The translations under genes were made by a program, and so were the position numbers. From assembly GCF_037975245.1 (NCBI RefSeq), contig NC_092568.1:13415501-13479500 (forward strand): DNA of 64,000 nucleotides, read 5' to 3'. Positions 1,967 to 62,300 of the stretch are shown piece by piece (within the stretch, counting starts at the first letter, position 1; every line of letters starts with the position of its first letter). Source of the DNA: Apostichopus japonicus (lineage: Eukaryota; Echinodermata; Holothuroidea; Aspidochirotida; Stichopodidae). The notes under the pieces are model-generated. The model had not been told where the DNA came from, searched no databases, and saw nothing but the letters and a program-made list of their open reading frames with translations.

Positions 1967-4349
1967 CTACTTGGACACCATATTCCGCATTAATTGGCTC
2001 GTCAACTTTTCAAGTTTCTTCAGATCCTGTGCATGTTCAGTTCTGTATAACAGGCACTAAAATGAAATAATGTACACTTTTGATCATCTACCATAAACTT
2101 ATTACAGAAAATAATCTTATTATGGCAGTTTTTATGATTGTTATAATTCTTTTTTCATTTGTCAGTACTGTACCAAAATTTAGGATAATACAGTTCAGAG
2201 AGGTAGATGAGAAAATTGCATAAAGTCTAAAGGTGAATAAAAATTGTTAGCAATACCATGTCATTTCATCACAATTATGGAAATGTATATCATGCAAACA
2301 AATAAGATGTCCTATTGGAACTACTTGATTGAATCACCAACAACCTTAAGAAGTTGGCCTTAACTTTACAATTTTGGATAGTTCTGCAAAAGTAAACTAT
2401 GCTCACCATTTATGGGATGAGCTAACACGTACCACATACTACGGCTGTCAGCTGCTTGAACAGAAACAAGGGCATTCTTCATATATACTTCTGAAACCAA
2501 CCTTGCTTTCTTATGCACAGGTAACCATATTGTTACTTGCAACTATCCATAGGAAATGTTCTTGTTTGTGAAGGATATATATGTTAAGGAATTTTAGTCT
2601 TTGCTAAATGGAAATAATCCTTTTTCTTCCCATATCCCCTTAAATTTTGGCCTAACTGTGATAATTTGTTTCCTTTTTGCAGTTTATATTTCCTTCCAAT
2701 TGGACAGTTTCTGAGTGAAAATGTGACCCTCTCATTTATTGGCACTGAATTTTGGAGAGTGAAAATTATGTCTTGATTTTTTTTCATAATTTAAGTAAAC
2801 TTAACTCTCAATGAATCTTAAATGATGATAAAACAAAAGCCATTTGTTTGGAACTGCCAATTCCTTGATGAATACAGAGATAACCCCTGATCACAGATAA
2901 CTTGAACAGAGTTGTTAAAATATTACTTTCCTCACTGAAAGCAATGTAACAGCTTCTTTCTTAATTAAGTAACTTCTTACCACTTGATCGTCTGTAACCT
3001 TCACAATGAGTTTGCCTTCACAGTGTCTATACTTCGTAACTACACGAACCTGAAAAACAAAACAAGACATTTCATATTTATGATTGTTTTATGTTTAGCC
3101 CCAAGAGCAGCTACTGTAACATAGAAGGGAGGGGGGAGGGAGGACTCTAGTGAACTTTCAATTTTAACTGCAAGATGACACATAATGGAAGTGGCACCCT
3201 GGTGAAATTTTTTTAAACTGTATGGTGAGATTTTGAAAGGGATTTTTCAATGATGTTTACATCTTTTTCAATTTTTATCATGCAACATCCTGTCCTTAAA
3301 AAGTTTCAATGAAATAGGAATGATAAAGATGCACTGTCTTGACAGAATGTGACAATGTACTTGTTGTTAGACTGAAGTAATTCAGTGTGAAACAGCTTCA
3401 GAATATCAAGTAAAGGTTGTCTTTGCCATTTCCATGGGACCTTGTTGAGGTTATACTGCTGCTATACTGTGGTTATAAAAGAGACCATATATACCTTATA
3501 TAAGGTAATGAGATCTTCAAAATAAAATAAAACTGTTAGCAAACTGCTTATCCACTAGAGAGCCTGTGTAATAGAATGTGTAAAAGTAAGTTGGCCTGAC
3601 GTTTCGATCCTAGCAGGATCTTCTTCTGAGGCTAAATGAAGAAGCCTCTGAAGAAGATCCTGCTAGGATCGAAACGTCAGGCCAACTTACTTTTACACGT
3701 AATGAGATCTTGCAAGCATCTTCTGTTTTTAAGTAATGGAGAATTGTAATGCTGTAGCACACAACTTAAAATACAGCTTATACTTAGCTTTAGTAAGTGA
3801 ATACATTGTCTTCATATGTTTAGCTTTCAAATTCATAACCAGTATAAAGACTAGAAATCAAATTGTAAACATAAACATTCTTACCAAGGTTAAAGCAGAA
3901 GTGGTGAATAATCTGAGAAAGGATTATGATGCTTTTGCAATTGATCAGCACTTCAGACTTTTTCTATTCTACAATTGTGGCCTGTACCACCAGTACTAGT
4001 ATAAAAATTAATCTTAATTTTGCTGCAGCAGGCTGGTTTATCTCTAAGTTGTTGTAACCAAGCTAAGTCTTCCTGAAATATTGAGACACATTCAAGTTGC
4101 CCAGATTTCTTTGCAATCTTGTTAGTTATTGGATTCAAAGTTAGCAAGTTTCCAATCTCTTTGCTCTCGATAATATAGAGGTATACAGTGTGGCTTAAGT
4201 TGCACCCAGTTCGAGTCATAACAGTTAGGCTAGGCCTGCTTGTTGTGTTAGGCTAACTTCCATATGTAACTTATTACCCGAGATGGATCTTGCAGATATA
4301 ACCGTTCTGCGGCTTTAGCAAACTCCTCAAAAGATGCTATGTACGGCAT
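1967..4349 (-). CDS. SRP9: Signal recognition particle 9 kDa protein, 3 coding exons
   Basis: SRP9 pairs with SRP14 to bind the Alu domain of SRP RNA and slows translation while the ribosome docks at the ER. Exons read on the minus strand are 4349-4278 (24 codons), 3049-2981 (23) and 2056-1967 (29 plus TAG), all joined in phase 0 with GT-AG introns. The 76-aa product starts MPYIASFEEFAKAAERLYLQ, continues with VRVVTKYRHCEGKLIVKVTD and ends CLLYRTEHAQDLKKLEKL...MRNMVSK. Each part lines up with human SRP9 as I recall it: the EEF-AAE-LYL-DP start, the KYRH-G-L-VKVTDD strand and the C-terminal AQD-KK-EK helix. The protein is about 10 residues shorter than the 86-aa human form because it stops right after the helix. 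A possible minus-strand poly(A) signal (tttatt) lies near 1097. Exon joins are by eye; family assignment is very secure. Confidence 0.95.
3505..3711 (+). mobile_element. Penelope-like inverted-repeat insert with hammerhead-like motif and 13-bp target-site duplication
   Basis: GTAATGAGATCTT occurs at 3505-3517 and again at 3699-3711, flanking a 181-bp insert. The insert ends in an inverted repeat: arms 3578-3632 and 3644-3698, 55 bp each with one mismatch and an 11-bp loop. The right arm reads GCCT, CTGAAGA, a GATCC/GGATC hairpin, GAAA, CGTC, AGGC. That is the order of a minimal type I hammerhead ribozyme: stem I closed by GCCT/AGGC, CUGANGA core, stem II, GAAA core, very short stem III and a GUC cleavage triplet. 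Hammerheads with a nearly absent stem III are known from the ends of Penelope-like retroelements, which also make inverted copies. No reverse transcriptase is present here. One extra A before stem II leaves ribozyme activity uncertain. Confidence 0.6.
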
Positions 4350-17045: not shown

Positions 17046-18400
17046 AATAAGCAAATAATAAGCAAATATTTATAGAGCGCTTTATGCAAAGGCCTCAAAG
17101 CGCTTAAACAAGTACACAAATATGCAAGTCAAATCACTGTAAATTTTGGAATAAATGAGTTTTTAAGAGACGCTTAAAACAGTCAACCGATGGTGCATTG
17201 CGAATTGAAGATGGTAGATTGTTCCAGAGATGAGGTGCAGCAGAGATGAAGGCTCTTTCTCCATAAAACTTTGTGTTTGGGGTATGGCTGGTGGCAAGAA
17301 GACACTTTGTAGACGAGCGAAGTTGGCGTTGAGGATGATACTGAGGAATTAAATTTGTAATGTAACCAGGGGCAAGGGAGTGTTGTGATTTGTACGTTAA
17401 GAGGAGGAGCTTATAAATTGACCGTTGCTTTACTGGAAGCCAATGGAGTGATTGAAGCACTGGAGATATGTGATCATGACACGATGAACATGATATTAAC
17501 TGGGCAGCAGAATTCTGAACAGTTTGAAGTTTTTTCAGTGTAGAGTCAGGAAGGCCAAATAAAAGGGAGCTACAGTAGTCAAGCCTGGGCATTATCAAGG
17601 AACATACAAGTTTTGTAGTTATATCGTTGGTTAAAAACTTCCGTATCCGGCTGATCTTCCGTACGGCATTGTATGATGATTTACAAACAGCATTGACCTG
17701 CTGTTTCATGCTTAGATGGGGATCCAGTACAACTCCTAGACTTTTGACGTGCGTGGACGGAGTGATGGTAGTCTGATCAATTTTGACTGAAATAGATTTG
17801 ATTGTTGTGGATTTAAATTGCGAGGTAGCATGGAGGATTTCAGTCTTTGAGTCATTGATAAAAAGATTGTTTGATATAGCCCATGATTTTACATCTGCAA
17901 TACAGTTTTGGATTTTTTGAATAGCATCGGAACAATGATCAGGATGGAAAGATGTGAATAACTGAATGTCATCAGCATAAATAACAGTTTGCATATGAGC
18001 TGAAATGATTAAATCATGCAATGGAGCTACATACAAGGTGTAAAGTAACGGCCCCAGAACTGAGCCTTGTGGGACTCCAGTTGCAAGCGTAACTTCCTTT
18101 GACAGATTTTGATCCACAGTAACACATTGGGTACGGTTTGCTAAGTATGATTTCATCCAATACAATGGAATTCCATCAACACCATATCTTTCATGCAAAC
18201 GTGTTAAAAGTGTTTGGTGATTGTGTCGAAGGCGGATGAGAAATCCAACAGGACTAGTAAAGCACCTTTATGCTCATCAAGGGCACAGAGAAGGCTATTC
18301 TGCACATAAAGTTAAGCAGTTTCTGTGCTGTAATTTGCTCGATATGCAGATTGCATTTTCGCATAGAGAGAAATTCCAGCGCCTTCAAAGCTGCTACACG
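17046..18400 (-). mobile_element. 5'-truncated non-LTR retrotransposon (LINE, CR1/L2 type), reverse transcriptase part
   Basis: A minus-strand frame of 354 codons (18198-17134) carries the second half of a non-LTR reverse transcriptase: ATGVPQGSVLGPLLYTLYV, then VIYADDIQLF with the catalytic YADD, a thumb region, and the LDYCSSLLFGLP ... LHWLPVKQRSIYKLLLL ... AAPHLWNNLPSSIR end typical of CR1/L2-type LINEs. Upstream, LVLLDFSSAFDTI (about 18220-18260) and QSAYRANYSTETA (about 18310-18350) continue the domain but are separated by a change of frame near 18210-18220 and a stop near 18310, so the copy is not functional as it stands. Everything 5' of the RT (endonuclease, ORF1) is absent, as expected for 5' truncation. 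The 3' end is AT-rich with a short repeat of TTTGCTTATTA at about 17046-17070. Clade choice between CR1 and L2 is by motif memory. Confidence 0.88.
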
Positions 18401-21620: not shown

Positions 21621-21883
21621 TACTTGTAGGTCATGTACACGAATTGACTACAGAACATTTTTCATATTTATAAACTCTCTCTGATGTTTGCTTGACCACT
21701 GTTTATATGGCAACAGTGAGGTTATGGCATAACTACAAAATACTTTTACAACAACTTTCCTTTGTTTTAAAGAATTTAATGTCAAGAGTGTTAAAGACAA
21801 GACCGTGTCTGACAGAACTCTGCAAAGTGACTAGAAAAATTTGAAGGAAATATATATAGATAAGATATTTTGATTTACAGATG

Positions 21884-22616
21884 CTGTTAGGATTTCACTC
21901 ATATTGCACTATTGTAGACCTGAAGATTTCTATCATACTTATAAAGTAACATTTTATCACATAAATTTGTTATTTAAAGTATTAAGGGATCATTAATAGC
22001 CTACACCAATAACTTAACTGTTCATGCATACAATGTATGAATATTACATCCTGTTTAATCTTATCTTCTACAAATTAACTTCTGTCATAACATAGTGCCT
22101 GTGTGTTCAGCTCTTAAACACAATCTGTCGTTCATCCACAAGTTTCCAAGTTTCAGTTTCTTATGCTTTTGGTGGGATTATTGATATTAGAAAAGTTGTG
22201 GTGTTGAACCTTTGATTTCTAGTTGACTTAACAGTCACCATTTTGACTTTCATATCTGTTAGGATTTCACTCATATTGCACTATTGTAGATCTGAAGATT
22301 TCTATCATACTTATAAAGTAACATTTTATCACATAAATTTGTTATTTAAAGTATTAAGGGATCATTAATATCTTAACTGTTCATGCTTACAATGTATGAA
22401 TATTACATCCTGTTTAATGTTATCTTCTACAAATTAACTTCTGTCATAACATAGTGCCTGTGTGTTCAGCTCTTAAACACAATCTGTCATTCATCCACAA
22501 GTTTCCAAGTTTCAGTTTCTTATGCTTTTGGTGGGATTATTGATATTAGAAAAGTTGTGGTGTTAAACCTTTGATTTCCAGTTGACTTAACAGTCACCTT
22601 TTTGACTTTCATATCT
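21884..22616 (+). repeat. Direct tandem duplication, 372-bp unit
   Basis: The block from CTGTTAGGATTTCACTC (21884) recurs at 22256. The copies are nearly identical; the second lacks a short piece near 22365 and has a few substitutions. No coding potential is visible, and the close match suggests a recent event. Confidence 0.92.
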
Positions 22617-31079: not shown

Positions 31080-33185
31080 GTTTGGGGGCCATTCACATAT
31101 TTGGCCATCACAAGAATCATGAATGAGGAGATAAACAGCGAAATGTTGTCCGACCAATCATGACAAAATTAAATCAGCTAAATTGGATCCTTGTGTGGTA
31201 AATGCAGTCAAATTGTAATTTTTATGTTCAGTCAATTTCACCTCATCCGTGAGATACCAGGAGCAGGTCATTTCACCCTTCAAATTCATTAATAAGTTTT
31301 CTCAAAGAACTGCTTACCTTACCTGGTTGGTAAAAATTGAAAGACTGAATATTTGAATTACTTCACTGAAGTGTTGACCTCAGTTATGAAGTAACAGAAT
31401 CTGGCTGAAAGTCTATTTCATCACTTTGTTCAATAAAATAATCACAGATAGAAAAAATTGTACAGGAATACAAATAAAGACAATGTCTTAACGCATGGGA
31501 TGCATTTAAATTGCTGTTTCTGAGCTCTGTTACTTACAGATTACTTACAATTTACAAACAGCTTTATTCAATTTTATGAATTATCCTGACATCATGAAAC
31601 AGAACACAGAGATATTTTACATAAATAGGCACTACTGAGAACGATTACAGAGTTGTAGAGTTCCTTTACTTGGTTTACTCTGACCTAGCTCATTGATTGT
31701 TCATTTTATTGTATGACCAGGTATTAGTTTGGTTTACTTTATTCCTAATCCCCCCACCCCCCACCTGTTTTAGTACTATCTGCTCCTGGTATCTACTGTT
31801 TTTAAAACTTGTTCTGTAATGCATTCAGTCTGTTGGTCCCTGATAGCTAAGCCATGACCTTACTTGGTTTATACTTCCACTGACTTGCTACTCTTGTCCA
31901 CCCTTTATCTGTTAGTTCATTCATGGAGCTAGTAATAGCTCCATAGCCCATGTTTCTGCATGCCTTTGTTATCATATTTTACAATTGTTGAAAGTGTATT
32001 ATATTCTACAGTAGTTAGCACTTTAATAATCAAATGCAGTGTATGGTTTGGGTATAATGCCAGTTTTTGCAAACATTTGTTGTTTCTATGACAATCTACA
32101 TGAGCTTGTACATAGTTTAATTACAATAGAATGGAAGTATCTAAGCAACAAAGCTTCTTCCCTGAATGGCTTACTGAAAGTCTGAATTTTAATTAGTTGT
32201 TACAATCACAATGAGGTTGCCAATTATCTGTTCCCTTTCCCATGATGCATTGGTTTGGTTTACATGGAAATCTACAGTTATGGACATTGCAGTATTAGGA
32301 CAGGACATATCAGTATGAGGACAGAATCAGAAGACGTCTGTTTCCAGAAGTATTTCTGCATCATAGTAGGGCTGGTTAATTGTTTTATAAACAGTAAATT
32401 TAACTTCACTATATTTTGGCTGAAAATACCTGTTTTTTATACCTTTATTTGTCGCATAATATACTAGTCTTATGCTCCACATAGTTACATGTTAAGTAAA
32501 AGAACTGTGTTATATGTAGTTTTCCTAAATGTATAGTTTTAACCTCACATCTTGTACTAGTGTAGCACATGCACTTCCCTCTGTAAACATCCCAAGAGAT
32601 GATTCTGTACGCCCTTTATGATTGTATACGGTGGCTTATCAACATCTGGATTGCTTCCTTTGGTTGCTAATATTACAAACAAAGAGTACAGAGGATGCAA
32701 TTTTAATCAGTATGAACAGGAAGGTAATCTGATCCCTTTATTAAGTAGACTTTGTGTTATGAGCGTGGATCACTTCCTCGATATTCTGAAAGATGTTCTT
32801 TGTTAGTCTAGATGAAGGCTGCGTGGGATATATTGAATATTCGTTGTTGGTAATGAGACATACAGATATGGCCATGGCTGGATTTATCATTGAAGTCATC
32901 TTTGTGTTTTTACTTTGTTGATACACTGCTCTGGTCATTCATTTATAGACAGTGTTAAACTTTCTGACTGTCACTGTAGTTGTCAGTAATGTTTCTGCTA
33001 GTATATATACACAATCCTAGTATACCTCAGTAATACAGTATTTGCCAAATGTGGATGTAACAATGTTCTTCCACGTAACTAATCAACCTCTTAAGGTTTT
33101 GTCTCAAAAAGTCATTTGCAGCTATACTTTATAATGTTCATCTTCATAAGCAATTGACTAACTGTAAAAACTCCTTACCATTTAG
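31080..33185. other. 3' flank of small membrane protein B, no gene recognised
   Basis: Holds poly(A) signal candidates at 31432 and 31473 and otherwise only short, unconserved frames. Confidence 0.5.
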
Positions 33186-33777
33186 ATATACTGTGTACTT
33201 TAAAGTATCTCTACAAAGCATAGACCATGCAGCAATTGGTACTTTGAACAAAGTATGAAATATCTGATTAGAGGCTTTTTCTGCTGTTGTCTGAACTTGA
33301 GAAGTTTTTTAAAGCTTGCTTGTAAATGAAAATCCTTTGCAGAGGCTGTTGTCTTCAATTTTAATATTCTATAATTGCCTTGTATGGAACCTTTATTGAC
33401 AATGGGTGGGCTGAAAAAAACTAAACCCATACACCCACACTGTGTGAAACCATTTCAGTGAAACATTTAACTGTACTGTAGATTCACTGTGTACTTTAAA
33501 GTATCTCTACAAAGCATAGACCATGCAGCAATTGGTACTTTGAACAAAGTATGCAATATCTGATAAGAGGCTTTTTCTGCTGTTGTCTGAACTTGAGAAG
33601 TTTTGTACAGCTTGCTTGTAAATGAACATCCGTTGCAGAGGCTGTTGTCTTCAATTCTAATATTCTATAATTGCTTTGTATGGAACCTTTATTGACAATG
33701 GGTGGGCTGAAAAACACTAAACCCACACACCCACACTGTGTGAAACCATATCTGTGAAACATTTAACTGTACTGTCA
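33186..33777 (+). repeat. Direct tandem duplication, 296-bp unit
   Basis: ACTGTGTACTTTAAAGTATC starts copies at 33190 and 33486; the pair ends with AAACATTTAACTGTACTGT in both. Identity is roughly 95% by eye. Each copy has a minus-strand frame of 76-88 codons (33430-33200 and 33762-33496), very similar to each other but like nothing I recognise. Confidence 0.92.
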
Positions 33778-39130: not shown

Positions 39131-42100
39131 CTATACCACAGATAAACCCCTTCTTGTCATCATATTATCTTTCCTACTCTTTGTTCTGTGTTTAGTTGCC
39201 GCTCTCTGTCTCTCTAGCTTGCTACCCAGTTTCGGTTTCTTCAAATTTTCTTTTGCTTTGGCAATGTGCGAAATGGGTCGTGATTTAACTGGTTGAGTTT
39301 CAGCTAACGGTTTCAATTTACCTAGTAAAGAAAAAAAAGTTTGCATGATCATCATCATTATGATATTAATGAAACGAAACGATATTATATGAGTGAACAT
39401 GTACATGGTGTGGAATGTAGCCTAGGTTTGTTATTACTGTAGCATAACACAGCCTATGTCTAGACTAGTGTGTCACACTCTGCAGTCAGTTGTCCAGTAT
39501 TCATTTGATGAACTGATCTTTTACAAACCATGGTTAGGTGGACATAAATCATGAATATTGGGCTAGAACAGAATAGGAAACATAGACCTGAGCAGTCATA
39601 TACCTAAACCAAATGAGCTTAGGATGCCAGTAAGAAGCCAATGTACCTAATGTATCATGCAACAAACAGTCACAACCCATTCATTACACACAGCCCCAGA
39701 CTGAAGCAGGGAAGGGATTTCGATACACGTAGTTACTGTATAGAAGCAAGGAACTGGTTGATTGAAACAAATTATTCCATTATCGAGAAAATTAGCGTAC
39801 ATACATGTGTGGCCTACAAATTTCTGTCAGTCGGGTCATGTTTGGGATGGGGTTGGGTGGGCATGCATTGATAATCTACCAGGATTAGGCTTGGGTGGAC
39901 ATGCATTGATAATCTACCAGGACTAGGCTTGGGTGGGCATGCATTGATAATCTAGCAGGATTAGGCTTGGGTGGGCATGCATTGATAATCTAACAGGATT
40001 AGGCTTGGGTGGGCATGCATTGATAATCTAGCAGGATTAGGCTTGGGTGGGCATGCATTGATAATCTAACAGGATTAGGCTTGGGTGGGCATGCATTGAT
40101 AATCTAGCAGGATTAGGCTTGGGTGGGCATGCATTGATAATCTAGCAGGATTAGGCTTGGGTGTGCATGCATTGATAATCTACCAGGATTAGGCTTGGGT
40201 GGACATGCATTGATTATCTACCAGGATTAGGCTTCATGACTGTCTTTCATTGCTTTCATGTATAATGTGGGTACATGTGTAATGTATATAATGTAATGTA
40301 TAATGCATAATGTGGGTACATGTAAAATGTTTTACATGTGGTTTAACATAAGTTATATGGCTAATTTGTTGCACCAGGAAAAGATATAATTGAACTTACC
40401 ACTGTAAGGTTTATACGTCAGTGGCTTGGACAAGGAAGCCTTCAAATCAAATTTCTTCTGAGTGGCGGGTGAGTTGACCGAGGTATTGGAAAACTTAAAA
40501 GGTGTGGTACTGGGTCCTAAATTTGGCAAAAGAAAAAAACAAAGTATATTTCATTTCTTCTTTGCCTCCTCCCAATGAGTGGGTTTGAGGTATAGAAGTG
40601 CCCTTGCAGACAGCATTTACTAAACAGAAAAATATATTAATAAAATTAGCAATAATAAGATTTGAAAACAACTGGTTGCCTGTCACATTGCTAGTCCACT
40701 GATCACAACAATCACTAAACTCACATGTTCAGCTAGACTCGACGAGGATAATAGCTTCAGATTGGAATAACATTTGCAGCAAAATGAACAAGGCATAGGC
40801 ATAGGCAAGGTACTTCTACTATCTAAAGACAGTGTGATAGCTATCAAATACATTTCAACAGAATCTATCTTGATTCTTACTTTTTTGTCACAACAGTTGT
40901 TTAATATAAATCTCTGTTGATCTTCAAAATTTACATCAAGAGTAAGCTGAGTGACCTTTCTGCACAGGTTAATGAGTAATCATTCACTAAAAGTTTCTGC
41001 TTTGTTTGGCTATATCATCAACTACATATTATTCCTTCTTACATTGTCCGTTTCAGAAGGTCAAACCTCATGAAGCCCCCTCCTCCCTCACACCATTTAC
41101 ATTGTAGTCAGATCATTTGAAGAGTTTTATCTTTTTTATCTTCTGGATAATGAAAGCCCACCCTCACCTGACACAGACTTCCTGCTGACTGAGCCACTCA
41201 TGACCGCAATGGATTTACGGCTTCCGGGTGTTGCAATTCTCTGCTCTGTGCTGGTCTTCCCAAAGATAAATGTGGAAGGCTTTGCTGGGGTTTTAAGCCG
41301 TGAAGCATGGAAGGTTACCGTCTTGGTAGTTGGCTTACTCGGTTTTGGAGAGAAGAAGCTAGTCCTCTTCATAGCAGGTTTAGCATCCTGTTAAATATAA
41401 GTGTTAGATATCACATTATACATGAATTACTTCAAGCAAAATACACAGATTCATGAACTGTTTATAACTGAAGGCCTGTTAAGTAGACACTATGTGAAAG
41501 AAACTTTAAAGGAAGAGGAGGATACAGTTAAAGGTAGATGATACTAGTCTGGAATGGAGAGTGAGATGCATCGAGTATCAAGATATCTTCACATAAAATA
41601 TAAACGATGAATTGAATCAGATTTTTTCTGTCGTCGAACATAACATTTTATGATTTTCTAAATCTTTCTCATAATCTCATGAGAGCAACATCTGAGAACT
41701 CTTTACAAGACAGTATTGCCAACATAGAAGACCAAATGATGAAAGGCTTTGTGAATAATTGCCTGATTCAAAGACATCAAGGTAACCTTAGCCAGCACAC
41801 TTGAATTTTGACTATTGTTGAGCTTTAGAAGTTCAGCAAGGTTCTTGGACTGACTAAGAAGGATCCTTCCCACATACCAGATATGAATTTCAACCAAGGT
41901 ATCATTTTGAGTTATTTAGCTTTGAACTTAATCACCAAAACTGATCTTCCAACTGGTGATAAAGTGTTAGGGTAACCCCTAGCAGGTGATTAAGTGTTTA
42001 GGGGTATCCCTAGTAGGTGATAAAGTGTTTAGGGGTACCCCTAGCAGGTGATAAAGTGTTTAGGGGTACCCCTAGCAGGTGATAAAGTGTTAAGGGGTAC

Positions 42101-45100
42101 CCCTAGCATGTGATTAAGTGTTTAGGGGTACCCCTAGCAGGTGATTAAGTGTTTAGGGGTACCCATAGCAGCACATGTATGTCAACTTCTCCAGTAATGG
42201 TTGTGAATGTATCACCAATACCTATCACACCTATATCACCAATATCTACCTATATCACACAAAAAAAAGGTTCTAATCTTGAATAGTGTGCAGACTTATG
42301 AGAACAAAAGCTATTTGTTTAATAAACAGAAGAAGATACAGAGCATGCTACCTATGTTCCGAAGATGAGTACAGTGCTAACAAATAACGTTGTTCCATTC
42401 TATGAAAGGTCAACTCATATTTCTCAAGTTACAATATTATGGACAAGTACAGCTTTTTGCTAATCCAAAGCTTTACAATGGCAGCAATATAGCTTTGGTA
42501 CTAGCTTACATATGTGTTTCACTATATAAAATGTATGTCTTTGCTTGTGCTGATGGGTGTAGTCTGTAGGCAATGAGCCTTTGTTGATGTTTGAGAAGTT
42601 GATTGTGAGATGTTTACTTCTCTTGTTGGACTCACCTTTGGAGTCTTCTTGGGAGTCTTCTTGGAAGAAGATGGAGCCTTTGGAAAAGAAAAATTCGGAA
42701 ATTATGTTACTGTTAACTGATGAATGCATATCAATGATGTGGTCATTACATTCTTAACATATACAGTCAGCTTTAAGATGTGTCTTCAAGGTGACTTCCT
42801 AAACAGAAGTTAGCTTCAAAACAAATCCCTGTGTCACATTTATTGATATGCTTGCGGAATCATAAAAGCAGCTGCTTTATGCTATACAGAATTGCGATAC
42901 TGCGTAAACAGAGATTTATGCATCATTACATTTGATAGTGTTGAAACATCCTCATCATAGCTACACATTTAATTCAAAATTATTAGTTGAAACATTGTGT
43001 ATTAGAGTGCATACCAATCTTATCACATTAAATGTGTCCAATTATATATTAATTTTAATTATTAAATTTACAACATATAGGAAGTATACAAATTTCCACA
43101 GAGGTAAAAAGCAAAATGTTAAAAAAGTACATGGCAACACTTCAGTATTTCAACATTACTGTGATAGTTCCCAGTGCCCTGTACGCTACAGACAGACCAC
43201 GGTCTAAACAGAACCACCCCCACATCTACTTCCAACAAATTTGTCTGACAGGTGTATAATAAAACAAATACCTATTTAGATGACTAACCTTTTTGTATGA
43301 CTGAGTCAATGCTTCAATTCGCTTCCTCTTTCTCTCCAAATAATCATCGATTGATTCCAGTTTTTCAAACTGAGCTTTGTGAGCTTTCTTAAAGTTTAAA
43401 GATTTCCCAGGAGTAACATTTTCAGAAGAGGCCTTGATTTTTGGAAGGGGTATGCCTGTCTTCTTGGTTGCAGGTAAAGCTAATAATTAAAGTTGAAAAA
43501 TTGTTATCAGATAAGATTAATACTTAAAACTTGTTAACAATGTTTACCAATGACTATAAAATGTAAAATGATATACTTACATGTCAGTTGCATTACTTAT
43601 AAACTGAGGTTTTACTCATGCTCAAACATACATCATGAAAAATCAATAAATACACATTAAGGAAAAATATTTTTATGCAAATTATATGGGATACTAACGT
43701 TTTTGTGGTGAGGTCTTCAATTCCAAACCAGTGATTGTTTCTGGCTTCATTTTATTTTTATTTTCTGGCGAAATCCTTTCTGCTCCTCCTGTTTCTCTTT
43801 TCTCATTCGCTGAGCTGCCATCTTGATTTCCGTCCATGCTGGTTGCTTTCATTTCTGACTGACTTCCATTCTCTGTTACTTCACTTTTTGGTGACATTGA
43901 AAAGGTCCTTTTCCTTGTTGATTTTCTGTAATAGAAAACATTATGGAAGTCAGGGTTGGCCGGTTCACATCACATTGACTTAAAGATTGATTTAATCACT
44001 TGATTTTTTTTTAAAGATTTAAATGATTGATACTGTTAATCCATTTTTTATAAACTCTATATCACAACCAAAACATGTTCTTTTAACTTCATAGAAACAA
44101 CAGAACACCCTCGGATGACATACACCACCATCAGTCCTTAACTGAATAAGCTTGGATGTATCAAGGGACATGTCTCAAAGAATAAACATGTTATAGAAAC
44201 ACAACCTGGACTGTAGCAGTGTTTTATAACGGTCTAAAATGTATCAAATTAATTTGTGCTAGAAGTTATGTATTCATGATCAACAAAAAATGGAAGTAAA
44301 CAAAATTTGCAACAAATGATCTAAATCAAATCACTCTTTTTGTTTATATCACCAACCTTGAACCTTTATAGAAGTGCAAATCCAGTTTGATAAAAAATTG
44401 CAAATTTTGTAAGATGATATGATATTTGATATGAAGTTTTGTGTTATGAAGTTTTTATGATATGAAGTTTTATGATATTGAAATTGGTGCACTGTAATTA
44501 TCAAAAGTTGGAAAAGTTGCATTTCTTTTACCTTGTAGCAGGGATAGGATCTGCTGGTTCAGATATTTTCTCCACATTACCAGCTGGAGCGAGTCTCTGC
44601 TGCTTGGCAGGCGGTAGCACTAGTTCATCGTCAGAACGACTTCTCTTCTGAGATGACTTTGGTGTCTTGGAAAAGTAAGAAGAACCCAAATCGCAAATGA
44701 CATCTTAACTACAAATATTCTTTCATGTTGTATCTCATTGTAGACAGATCAAGTTGGTTTAACCATATACTACTCTAACTAGTTAAAAAATATTGTTATT
44801 TAACTGTCTATAATGATCCAAATAGTTTGAAACCCTCCTCTGATTACTTCATCAGCATCTTCTGGTTTCCTTACGGCTTCAATTTCATTACATTGGTATA
44901 ATGATGCACAGTGCATTTTCTTCTTTAATAGCATACAGTATGTAATTGTATTGTGTACTACGATATTAAATTAGAAAGCAGACATTAAATTAATATTGAT
45001 ATACTCTGTAGAACATTACAAATCACTGCACTATCACTACTGATAGTATGTTTATGGAGACCTCTTATTATTACTGGCTCATCAATGCCATTTACTGGGT

Positions 45101-59300: not shown

Positions 59301-62300
59301 GTAAAGTGACAAAGCCTAATGTTTTGGTCTTAGAATGGTCTTGTCCAAAATGTATTTTACAATCTTGAAACTGACTACAATTGTTTCTTTCGTCACCCTC
59401 AAGGCTTGGTAGCCGTGTGGAACCCAGGGACAGGGATCGGGACAGGGATAGGGAAGAAAGTGATGAAGAAGAAGAAGAAGATGAAGCCAAGAAGGTACGG
59501 GATCTTCATAAGAACGAAATGACTTACATAATTATAGTATTATAGTCTGTCAATGATAGCTAAAACATGGGTTAATTTTCCTTAAGCAGGGTGGTGGTCA
59601 CTTTGGTTAATTATAGTTATTGCAATGTGTTTGTTTGAGCAAATACAGATTTCATCCTGTACTCTTGAGTTGTTTATCCTTGTTTTCCTCCAGCCCACTC
59701 TGCAGTCCTCAGTTGTAGCCACTGCTCCTGTTGTCAAGTCCAGGGAAGATACCGTAAAGGACCAGCAAAAAGATACTCGTGGTCGAGCCAGGTATGTTAG
59801 TAAATTTTCTGACTGTTGTGTCAAGTAAACTTGCTTTGTATATATAATGTCAATATAACAATGGTGTTTCATTCATTCCCATACCAGTGATGTGGTAACC
59901 CCATCCCAGTAAACTTGCTTTGTATATAAAGTGTCAATATGACAGTGTACCTGGTGTTTCATTCATTCCCATACAAGTGATGTGGTAACCCATCCCAGGC
60001 ATATCATGAACACTTACATACTTTCCAATAGCTATTTAAAATAAATGCCAATAGTGAGTAATAGATGCCAATAAATCTTAATCAAAAACATCATATTTCA
60101 TGGTTTACCACCAAATACTTGGAAAAGAATAAGTTCAGTTGTGGTGTTCACACATCTCAAGAGACTCAAGTTTGCTGATACAGGAAATATATAGCTCTGT
60201 CTGTTATCTCAGTCACTGCAAGACCAATGTCCATTACTACCACAAATATTCAATATACATCTCCTGTCTCCATTGGCTGTCTAAACACTGTCCTAGAGGC
60301 TGTTTACCTCTCATGACAGAGTATTTCACATTTTTTCTTTGCCACATGTCTCCTGCGATACTTCACTATACAATATAACCTTTACCTGGTTTAATGTATT
60401 TTCATACCCATTGCTCCAATGCTCAGCATTACCTATTAAAAAGTGGTGTTTGGTATATATTGACACTGTGGAAGGTGATGTATGTGTGATCATATATATC
60501 GTATATAAAGCATATGTGTACTTACTCTCTATATCGATTTTTTCACAGTTGCTACTATGTTACCCAATATTTGCTCGCTAAATGAAAACATAGCACATGT
60601 TGCATCCTACATAAAATTGCTTGTTACTTTAAGCAGTTCTAAGGTTATGTTGACTTTGTCCACGGTGTAGTGATTTCTAAAATGCGTTTTGAATATCCTT
60701 GGTCAGTTAGTAGTACTAGGACATACTCTGTTTTAAAATTTCCTCTGTTTTTCTTTAACATAACTCTGCCTGGTAATATCACTCAGCACACCTATATTTT
60801 TCTTTTTGTCTTCTTCTTTACAATGTCTCATTGAAAAAATATCTCCGAAAACAGTGTTCAATGTTTAAAATTATGTGATGGACATGTCAGTGTAAGTTTT
60901 TTACCTTTTTTGAAAGAGACATAAATGTGGCATTCATGTGTTTTACAAAACTAACTGTTTGAGATTCTCTCTGCCCTCACAAACATATATATATATCAAT
61001 ATTTTCTTCTGTTACTGTTACTTGTCATTTAGCCTTTGAAGAAGATCTTTCTAGGATCGAAACGTCAGGCCAACTTACTTTTACACACACACACACATCA
61101 ATATTTTCTCATAAGATCAATTTATTTTTATCCTTGCTGGAGGCAAACGGAATCTATGCCTTGGTGATGGCCTGTGTGAATATGTGTTTGTGTTGCCTTG
61201 TCTTGTAAACACTGTTACTACAAAAGTAAAAGTACAAAAGTAAATGGACATCATATTTGCTATACATAGACTCAGCTTATTGAGTACAAGAACACTGTTC
61301 CTCTTTGTAAAGAAAAATGTTGTAAACTCTGTGTATTGAACTGCTGGAGAGCAAGGAAAATTGCTGAAAAGGAGAAAAAATTGGGTGGTAAAAGTTTGCT
61401 TTCTGCTAAACTTGAATTCTTTCTGTGACTCTATGATTGCTCACATGACAAATTGTCAATTTTTTACAAATAAGTATTTTGTCAGCACATCTCCTTCTTC
61501 CAGTAGTAATGAATATGTAATAATACTGTGCATGTCTTTGTACAGTGTTGCAAGTATAGACATTCTTTACAATGTAATGATTGTGGACATTTGTGTCTGA
61601 TTTAAGCATAAAGGATCTGATGAAACTTGATGTCATCTTCTTTTTCTTTCTTGCAGGAATAAGAGAATGTTCGGTCTGTTGCTTGGGACTCTTCATAAAT
61701 TCAAACAAGAAGCCACTCATTTTGAAGACAAGGTGAGAAAACTACATGTGATAACAAGAATTTAGAACTACTTTTGTTTTCTTGAAAGAAATCACTTTAA
61801 ACCATGTAGTGCTTAGTGGATGTTGTTTCTCCTGTATGAATTCACAGATCTTGCAAACTCATTAGCTCCGCTGTTTAGTAATCAATGAATATTCACAATT
61901 GCGGTTATAAAGAGGGTCAGACACAAATGTAACCTATCCCAAAGTATGAACCTGACAAGAAGTAACTTGGCCACCTGTATGTCAGAACTAAAACCTTTCG
62001 CCAGCTTTAACGATTGTCATCTGACAATTTCCTTTCTGATATGCACTCTTTGAACGTCAGACGTCCAACGTTGCCTTTCTTTCTTTCCTTTGTGGAGTGG
62101 GCAAGTTCGTCTGCTTGGCGTTCAAGCAATGTTGTCTGGGCATAAAGTGTTCTGCATACCTATACTGTGGATGTATTCCCCGTATAGTATGTGCGGTTCT
62201 ATATTACGTAGATTGATTACACATTTACCCTTCTGTGTTTACTACTTCAAATAATAACATCTACCCGAGACTGGAAACTTCATCCCTCATTTATCTTGCA

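Follow-up and report, generated by a model that had tools for sequence, protein, structure and literature searches.

A short inverted insert in the Apostichopus japonicus genome as a probable leader-only product of a Penelope-like element

The stretch of DNA analysed here, referred to below as the window, comprises 64,000 nucleotides of the Apostichopus japonicus genome (C8:13415501–13479500); the genome searched amounts to 671.6 Mb in 35 contigs. Near the start of the window lies a 181-bp insert (3518–3698), bounded by a 13-bp target-site duplication and composed largely of two inverted arms, each carrying a hammerhead-like motif. We propose that it represents an endonuclease-containing Penelope-like element (PLE) inserted as its leader alone, the two target strands having primed at separate sites on a single RNA and the resulting complementary DNAs (cDNAs) having been joined head-to-head; to this reading, PLE origin and two-site priming taken jointly, we assign a rough probability of 0.6. 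Short inserts such as this one bear on the route by which Penelope elements insert, the reason for tails and inversions, and the role of the hammerhead; they would be natural end-products of the process, in which ends, junction and duplication can all be read within about 220 bp.

Exact copies of the 13-bp repeat stand on both sides of the insert, as a preceding sequence-only reading of the window had claimed. Its inverted arms are likewise present, although each measures 56 nt and not the 55 bp given there; they are 98% complementary and spaced by 9 nt. The two ends of the insert are unequal, the 60 bp outside the left arm having no counterpart at the right arm. As a check on chance, exact 13-mers recurring at 50–250 bp were counted in 20 Markov-simulated windows, which gave 0–2 each; the same count in the real window gave 741 rows, nearly all from tandem arrays together with a few isolated pairs, and a recurring 13-mer is therefore not unique by itself. 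The insert is settled as real because its duplication coincides with a mobile family, seen as whole-insert matches across the genome.

Searching with the whole insert returned 1,016 first-look candidates, the best 40 of which were scored and matched over most of the insert length, while the arm motif CTGANGAN{8,24}CGAAACGTC has 1,642 matches in the genome and its reversed control 11. Upstream of the arm, longer copies have in common a pyrimidine-rich 3′ untranslated region (3′UTR) and the end of a protein. A piece of this upstream region, used as query, gave 1,837 candidates, the best 40 of which were scored and found 98–100% alike, and led to a locus designated L074. Its order is inverted leader (at about 117–173), a junction of about 40 A, hammerhead, tail, reverse transcriptase (RT), GIY-YIG endonuclease, 3′UTR and a second hammerhead ending TTTTACAC. 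The direct leaders begin at 212 and 3462, 3.25 kb apart. Between their two intact hammerheads lies a 794-codon open stretch with an RVT_1 match (7.3e-9), and C-terminal to the RT, in a further frame, a GIY-YIG match of 24.1 bits (cut-off 22.6), so that RT and endonuclease sit in different frames in this copy. Against PDB sequences the RT frame had no match at E ≤ 0.01. The A run itself (L074:173–212) marks the junction of two long head-to-head PLE copies.

The hallmarks of endonuclease-containing PLEs—RT, GIY-YIG domain, a leader at both ends plus an inverted leader, an optional tail and a target-site duplication—are all found, and by these predicted features L074 is an endonuclease-containing PLE. 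The Penelope origin suggested earlier, with a Penelope-type RT to be sought beside intact copies of the motif, is borne out at this locus, where an RT frame and a GIY-YIG frame stand between two intact motifs. The arm of the window insert is identical in extent and order to bases 1–56 of the PLE unit, comprising the minimal hammerhead and then TTTTACAC; the 60 bp on the outer side of the left arm correspond to the PLE tail and recur directly after the 5′ hammerhead of L074.

The evidence for two priming sites comes from the outer ends of the copies. With the leaders aligned so that AGCC is position 0, most copies stop either near +56, at TTTTACAC (ACAC type, limit 51–67), or at about +110 to +122 (tail type, limit 98 or more). 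Twenty-two head-to-head copies, chosen irrespective of their ends, were examined; in all 19 that could be resolved one end is of ACAC type and the other of tail type, and none has equal ends. These 19 comprise 12 of the 15 fetched rows of a 43-row head-to-head list, L015 and L023, both among the first 30 motif matches, and five of five kilobase-long pairs; six of them also stand among the best 40 whole-insert matches. A further 16/16 copies, including that in the window, are heterotypic, in a set biased by having been retrieved with the window insert itself. The long pairs are five of the six "− then +" clusters among the best 40 matches of the upstream-region query described above, with 1.8 to 6.5 kb between matches, and some are truncated, judging from match distances. 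The sixth cluster (C20, 22.66 Mb) lies outside the count. Of the five pairs, the interior was read for one, L074, in its right half. Three of the first 30 motif matches (L014, L018 and L025) include a second piece that is inverted and has the opposite end type, but they are less clean and were left uncounted; the remaining 25 are single, 10 of ACAC type and 15 of tail type.

This architecture is close to that described for PLEs of Adineta vaga such as Pen2a_Av (PMC3846280), in which one open reading frame holds RT and endonuclease and pseudo-long terminal repeats (pLTRs) are accompanied by an adjacent inverted pLTR. In those elements, too, a tail occurs on one inverted pLTR (31 bp there, 60 bp here), solo pLTRs exist and head-to-head junctions are palindromic. 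The A. vaga examples given have duplications of 8–10 bp, whereas those here are mostly 13–15 bp, and the inverted leaders here can form a whole 181-bp insert. PLEs are already known to have inverted pLTRs, a tail on one of these, duplications and solo pLTRs, and to carry minimal hammerheads; added here are the counted one-of-each-end rule and the leader-only inserts. No statement of the former as a counted rule was found in the literature searched, the coverage of which falls short of much subscription literature.

Duplications flank many head-to-head and single copies, their absence from other copies having been named by the sequence-only reading as grounds for refutation. A string of at least 9 nt is shared between the flanks in 26/35 head-to-head rows (25/33 without the duplicate loci L065 and L068), compared with 20/1,190 mismatched pairings, and in 12/28 rows treated as single, compared with 7/756. 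The 37 listed duplications of at least 11 nt are mostly 13–15 bp long and contain 78.6% A+T, versus 63.9% for the window; those of the five long pairs measure about 13–17 bp by eye, including terminal letters common to the element. Short length, inverted arms and flanking duplications are also what a DNA transposon with terminal inverted repeats, similar to a miniature inverted-repeat transposable element, would present. The ends, however, are asymmetric (tail versus ACAC), single-arm copies carry duplications of their own and the arm belongs to a PLE, and we give such an origin practically no weight.

In the mechanism that we propose, the PLE protein would make staggered cuts, about 13–15 nt apart, in the two target strands. 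One target 3′ end would prime at site 1 (ACAC) and the other at site 2 (the tail end), both sites lying on the same RNA or on RNAs from one source. With priming in the 5′ leader, both cDNAs would soon arrive at the RNA 5′ end, where they may acquire untemplated A residues before head-to-head joining gives the 181-bp insert. Priming in the downstream leader of a tandem transcript could instead give kilobase-long head-to-head pairs, as at C8 ~906–912.6 kb, and use of one target strand alone could give single inserts of 60 or 120 bp. The RNA serving as template would normally escape cutting by its own hammerhead.

Several of these steps have counterparts in PAc, a Poseidon element of Anolis carolinensis, as described in an account of its activity in vitro (PMC11167929): the hammerhead starts the unit, both strands of an AT-rich target are cut and extended by the PLE protein, RT starts internally at two sites bounding the tail, and hammerhead mutants still insert. 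That account reports no strand difference in start site and does not predict one, whereas the two ends of a single insert here use different start sites, which is what the genome adds. A more general two-strand rule can be put forward tentatively, at somewhat less than even odds: the start sites would lie 60 nt apart on one RNA, a different one serving each target strand; the "tail" would mark which strand primed where; and leader-only inserts would be the smallest complete products, recording the 5′ end of an uncut RNA.

The inner ends of the arms bear on how the two cDNAs were joined. Thirteen of the first 30 motif matches, which all lie on contig 1 and are not a random draw, stop at −10 to 0 from AGCC, the other 17 having limits scattered between −34 and −600 or farther out. 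Among exact strings AGCCTCTGAAGAAGATCCTGC genome-wide, 977/1,814 run on into the 3′UTR as TGTCATTY; the other 837 are copies that begin there together with copies mutated upstream. The arm–arm junctions comprise 40 distinct strings in 43 rows, two of which overlap at one place. In the 33 junctions oriented by the tail, TTTA or TTCA stands on the tail side in 22 and TAAA or TGAA on the other side in 15; 11 have an A/T run of five or more, and five are perfect loop-free palindromes. From these patterns we infer that the RNA 5′ end to which the cDNAs extend lies about 3 bases beyond the outer edge of stem I, and that untemplated A may be added before the cDNAs are joined.

Matching arms could also arise by fold-back, with cDNA from the tail end reaching the RNA 5′ end and copying itself back, and the second arm then being linked, at ACAC, to the opposite target end. 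For the inverted pLTRs of A. vaga, which stand head-to-head at palindromic junctions, self-priming of this kind, on an antisense template, has been proposed (PMC3846280) and is the explanation offered for the inversion, whereas the one-of-each-end rule here is counted over many copies. Fold-back accounts for the matching arms and for the substitutions that they share. In cis, however, it cannot directly make loop-free perfect palindromes (5/33 junctions), the A/T runs of five or more (11/33) also speak against it, and it offers no reason for the stop at ACAC, where single inserts with duplications (L016 and L032) also end. We regard fold-back as the main rival reading, though an unlikely one.

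Another possibility is that a longer head-to-head element lost its interior and kept the two outer hammerheads. Kilobase-long head-to-head elements with the same outer end kinds exist, and the window copy retains 7 nt (TCATTTA on the minus strand, spanning part of the junction and position 3633) that match the PLE 3′UTR immediately upstream of the hammerhead, followed by a few further bases. Deletions would be expected to leave scattered breakpoints and retained 3′UTR, but many arms instead stop at the hammerhead edge, and both the tail-side TTTA or TTCA (22/33) and the A/T runs (11/33) count against this explanation, which we consider very improbable.

If the template RNA had been cut by its hammerhead, copies would be expected to begin at AGGCC. 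Among exact strings AGGCCAACTTACTTTTACAC, and hence among well-kept copies, C precedes AGGCC in 2,468/2,547. Forty-six of the 79 strings without C keep CGT upstream and are point mutants, leaving at most 33; with chance C allowed for, possible cut-site starts number at most about 44/2,547 (1.7%). Since so few strings could start at the cleavage site, an RNA uncut by its own hammerhead is the likely template under two-site priming. In L069 and L070, which have duplications of their own, core base C3 is T in both arms, which suggests that insertion could proceed even from an RNA whose ribozyme core is damaged. The few cut-site starts and this core change agree with the reported finding that hammerhead mutants leave insertion unaffected in vitro (PMC11167929). 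The counts yield a rule (one ACAC and one tail end, 19/19) and a limit (at most about 44/2,547 at the cut), both testable with purified PLE. At C1:102422–102467, a gap of 4 bases separates two facing leader ends, where both cDNAs may have stopped near the hammerhead cut.

The cut-site count also bears on whether the insert is an independent small retrozyme that spreads via self-cleaved circular RNA. Animal retrozymes, too, are small inserts that are non-coding and carry type I hammerheads, and the lengths described for their RNAs, about 170–400 nt, are compatible (PMC7229834). Two partial leaders stand in direct order in L020 (1320–1553), and two exact strings 57 bp apart are in direct order at C2:23018269–23018354. 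In the same account, however, retrozymes are tandem repeats that give circular RNAs and mostly have canonical hammerheads (PMC7229834), whereas the insert here is inverted, as is the usual short multi-unit form, and is PLE-derived. Few copies can start at the cleavage site, and the junctions are nearly all different; a retrozyme origin appears extremely improbable.

For the preferred reading, a single source for both arms is indicated by substitutions shared between the arms of an insert: C54T in L004, A47T in L044, C6T in L069 and L070, and A42C in L051. Private substitutions are expected from later mutation; 12 private differences fall at recurrent sites, nine at two CpG sites and three at position 42 in older inserts. 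An origin of the arms from two different RNAs was considered and dropped, young inserts having no discordant variant callable as a source variant.

Several observations weigh against leader-only insertion by two-site priming. Over all loci compared, 7 substitutions are shared between arms as against 71 private ones, the shared ones suit fold-back equally well, and three older inserts (L015, L040 and L041) differ at variable position 42. One end is of unassigned type in each of L046, L047 and L053, 3/15 fetched rows of the 43-row list. No duplication of at least 9 nt is present in 9/35 head-to-head and 16/28 single rows, part of which age or the search window may explain. The tail arm of the window copy extends about 4 nt beyond the usual 5′ point, both the RNA 5′ end and the addition of A are deduced from DNA, and the figures for the 5′ limit (13/30) and the cut site (33/79) stem from differently chosen sets.

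The hammerhead motif of the right arm reads in the order first described for it: GCCT, CTGAAGA, A, GATCC-TGCTA-GGATC, GAAA, CGT C and AGGC. The type I core CUGANGA ... GAAA ... UH and stems I and II are present in the plus-strand arm, with one extra A and with stem III almost missing (Table 1). No Rfam hammerhead model matches the motif at gathering or at E ≤ 10, in searches run without a known PLE hammerhead as positive control, and one of the outcomes named beforehand as refuting the reading has in this respect occurred. Matches below gathering are mainly to microRNA, CRISPR-repeat and other hairpin-fitting models. To us this failure is not decisive, since the hammerheads of PLEs are described as a minimal kind without helix III and tertiary contacts (PMC6155905); the motif here is like them in its core, its all but absent helix III and its position within a repeated PLE leader. 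An extra unpaired A after A9 is likewise described in the plus hammerhead of the chrysanthemum chlorotic mottle viroid, CChMVd (PMC3705267). The label "hammerhead" is a putative one, drawn from the core sequence and the published account of PLE hammerheads. When the second pair of stem II is swapped to G-C, the pattern occurs at one place and the control likewise at one, single matches that make the count uninformative.

Ribozyme-like sequences on both strands, as the head-to-head arrangement had been taken to imply, are not supported in a working form. The core is intact in the plus-strand motif alone, because the left arm reads CAGAAGA in place of CTGAAGA on the minus strand (position 3627). 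The predicted fold energy is −10.8 kcal/mol for the arm as a hammerhead and −110.6 kcal/mol for the whole insert as a hairpin on either strand, a fold that would bury both motifs. Because of the mutated minus-strand core and the insert-wide hairpin, a pair of functional ribozymes on opposite strands is very unlikely.

Table 1. Positions in the window of the insert, its parts and a second copy of the family
Feature	Position	Strand	Remarks
Target-site duplication, left copy	3505–3517		GTAATGAGATCTT, 13 bp; exact repeat
PLE-leader "tail", 60 bp	3518–3577	−	Outer end of tail type, putative RT start site 2; tail-type copies stop close to one point
Left arm	3578–3633	−	PLE leader positions 1–56; hammerhead-like motif with core change
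Arm–arm junction	3634–3642		Junctions vary among copies
Right arm	3643–3698	+	PLE leader positions 1–56, ending in TTTTACAC; putative RT start site 1
Minimal hammerhead	3644–3682	+	Read from the sequence
Hammerhead stem I	3644–3647/3679–3682	+	Four pairs
Hammerhead core CTGAAGA	3648–3654	+	
Hammerhead unpaired A	3655	+	Follows A9
Hammerhead stem II	3656–3660/3666–3670	+	Five pairs
Hammerhead GAAA, CGT and C	3671–3674, 3675–3677 and 3678	+	Predicted cut 3678/3679
Target-site duplication, right copy	3699–3711		Exact repeat
Second family copy	61008–61096	+	One arm; ACAC-type end, then (AC)n
Duplication of second copy	60995–61007, 61097–61109		ATCAATATTTTCT, 13 bp

The window holds a second copy of the family, a single arm with a 13-bp duplication of its own (Table 1); its 5′ limit lies about −23 from AGCC, and its core base C3 is T.

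A 377-aa open stretch on the minus strand of the window (17137–18267) has an RVT_1 match of 2.4e-17; considered as an RT partner of the insert, it was rejected for want of resemblance to the PLE RT, and it belongs to a fragment of another kind of retroelement. For PF01541, 37 GIY-YIG matches were found in the genome, several of them in open stretches of more than 400 codons (for example C13:25221818, 910 codons), and these probably represent other PLE families. Tandem arrays in the window include a 38-bp unit repeated 10 times (39853–40234), a 31-bp unit repeated seven times (41955–42171), and units of 296 bp (33183–33775) and 359 bp (21867–22616) that are each present twice.
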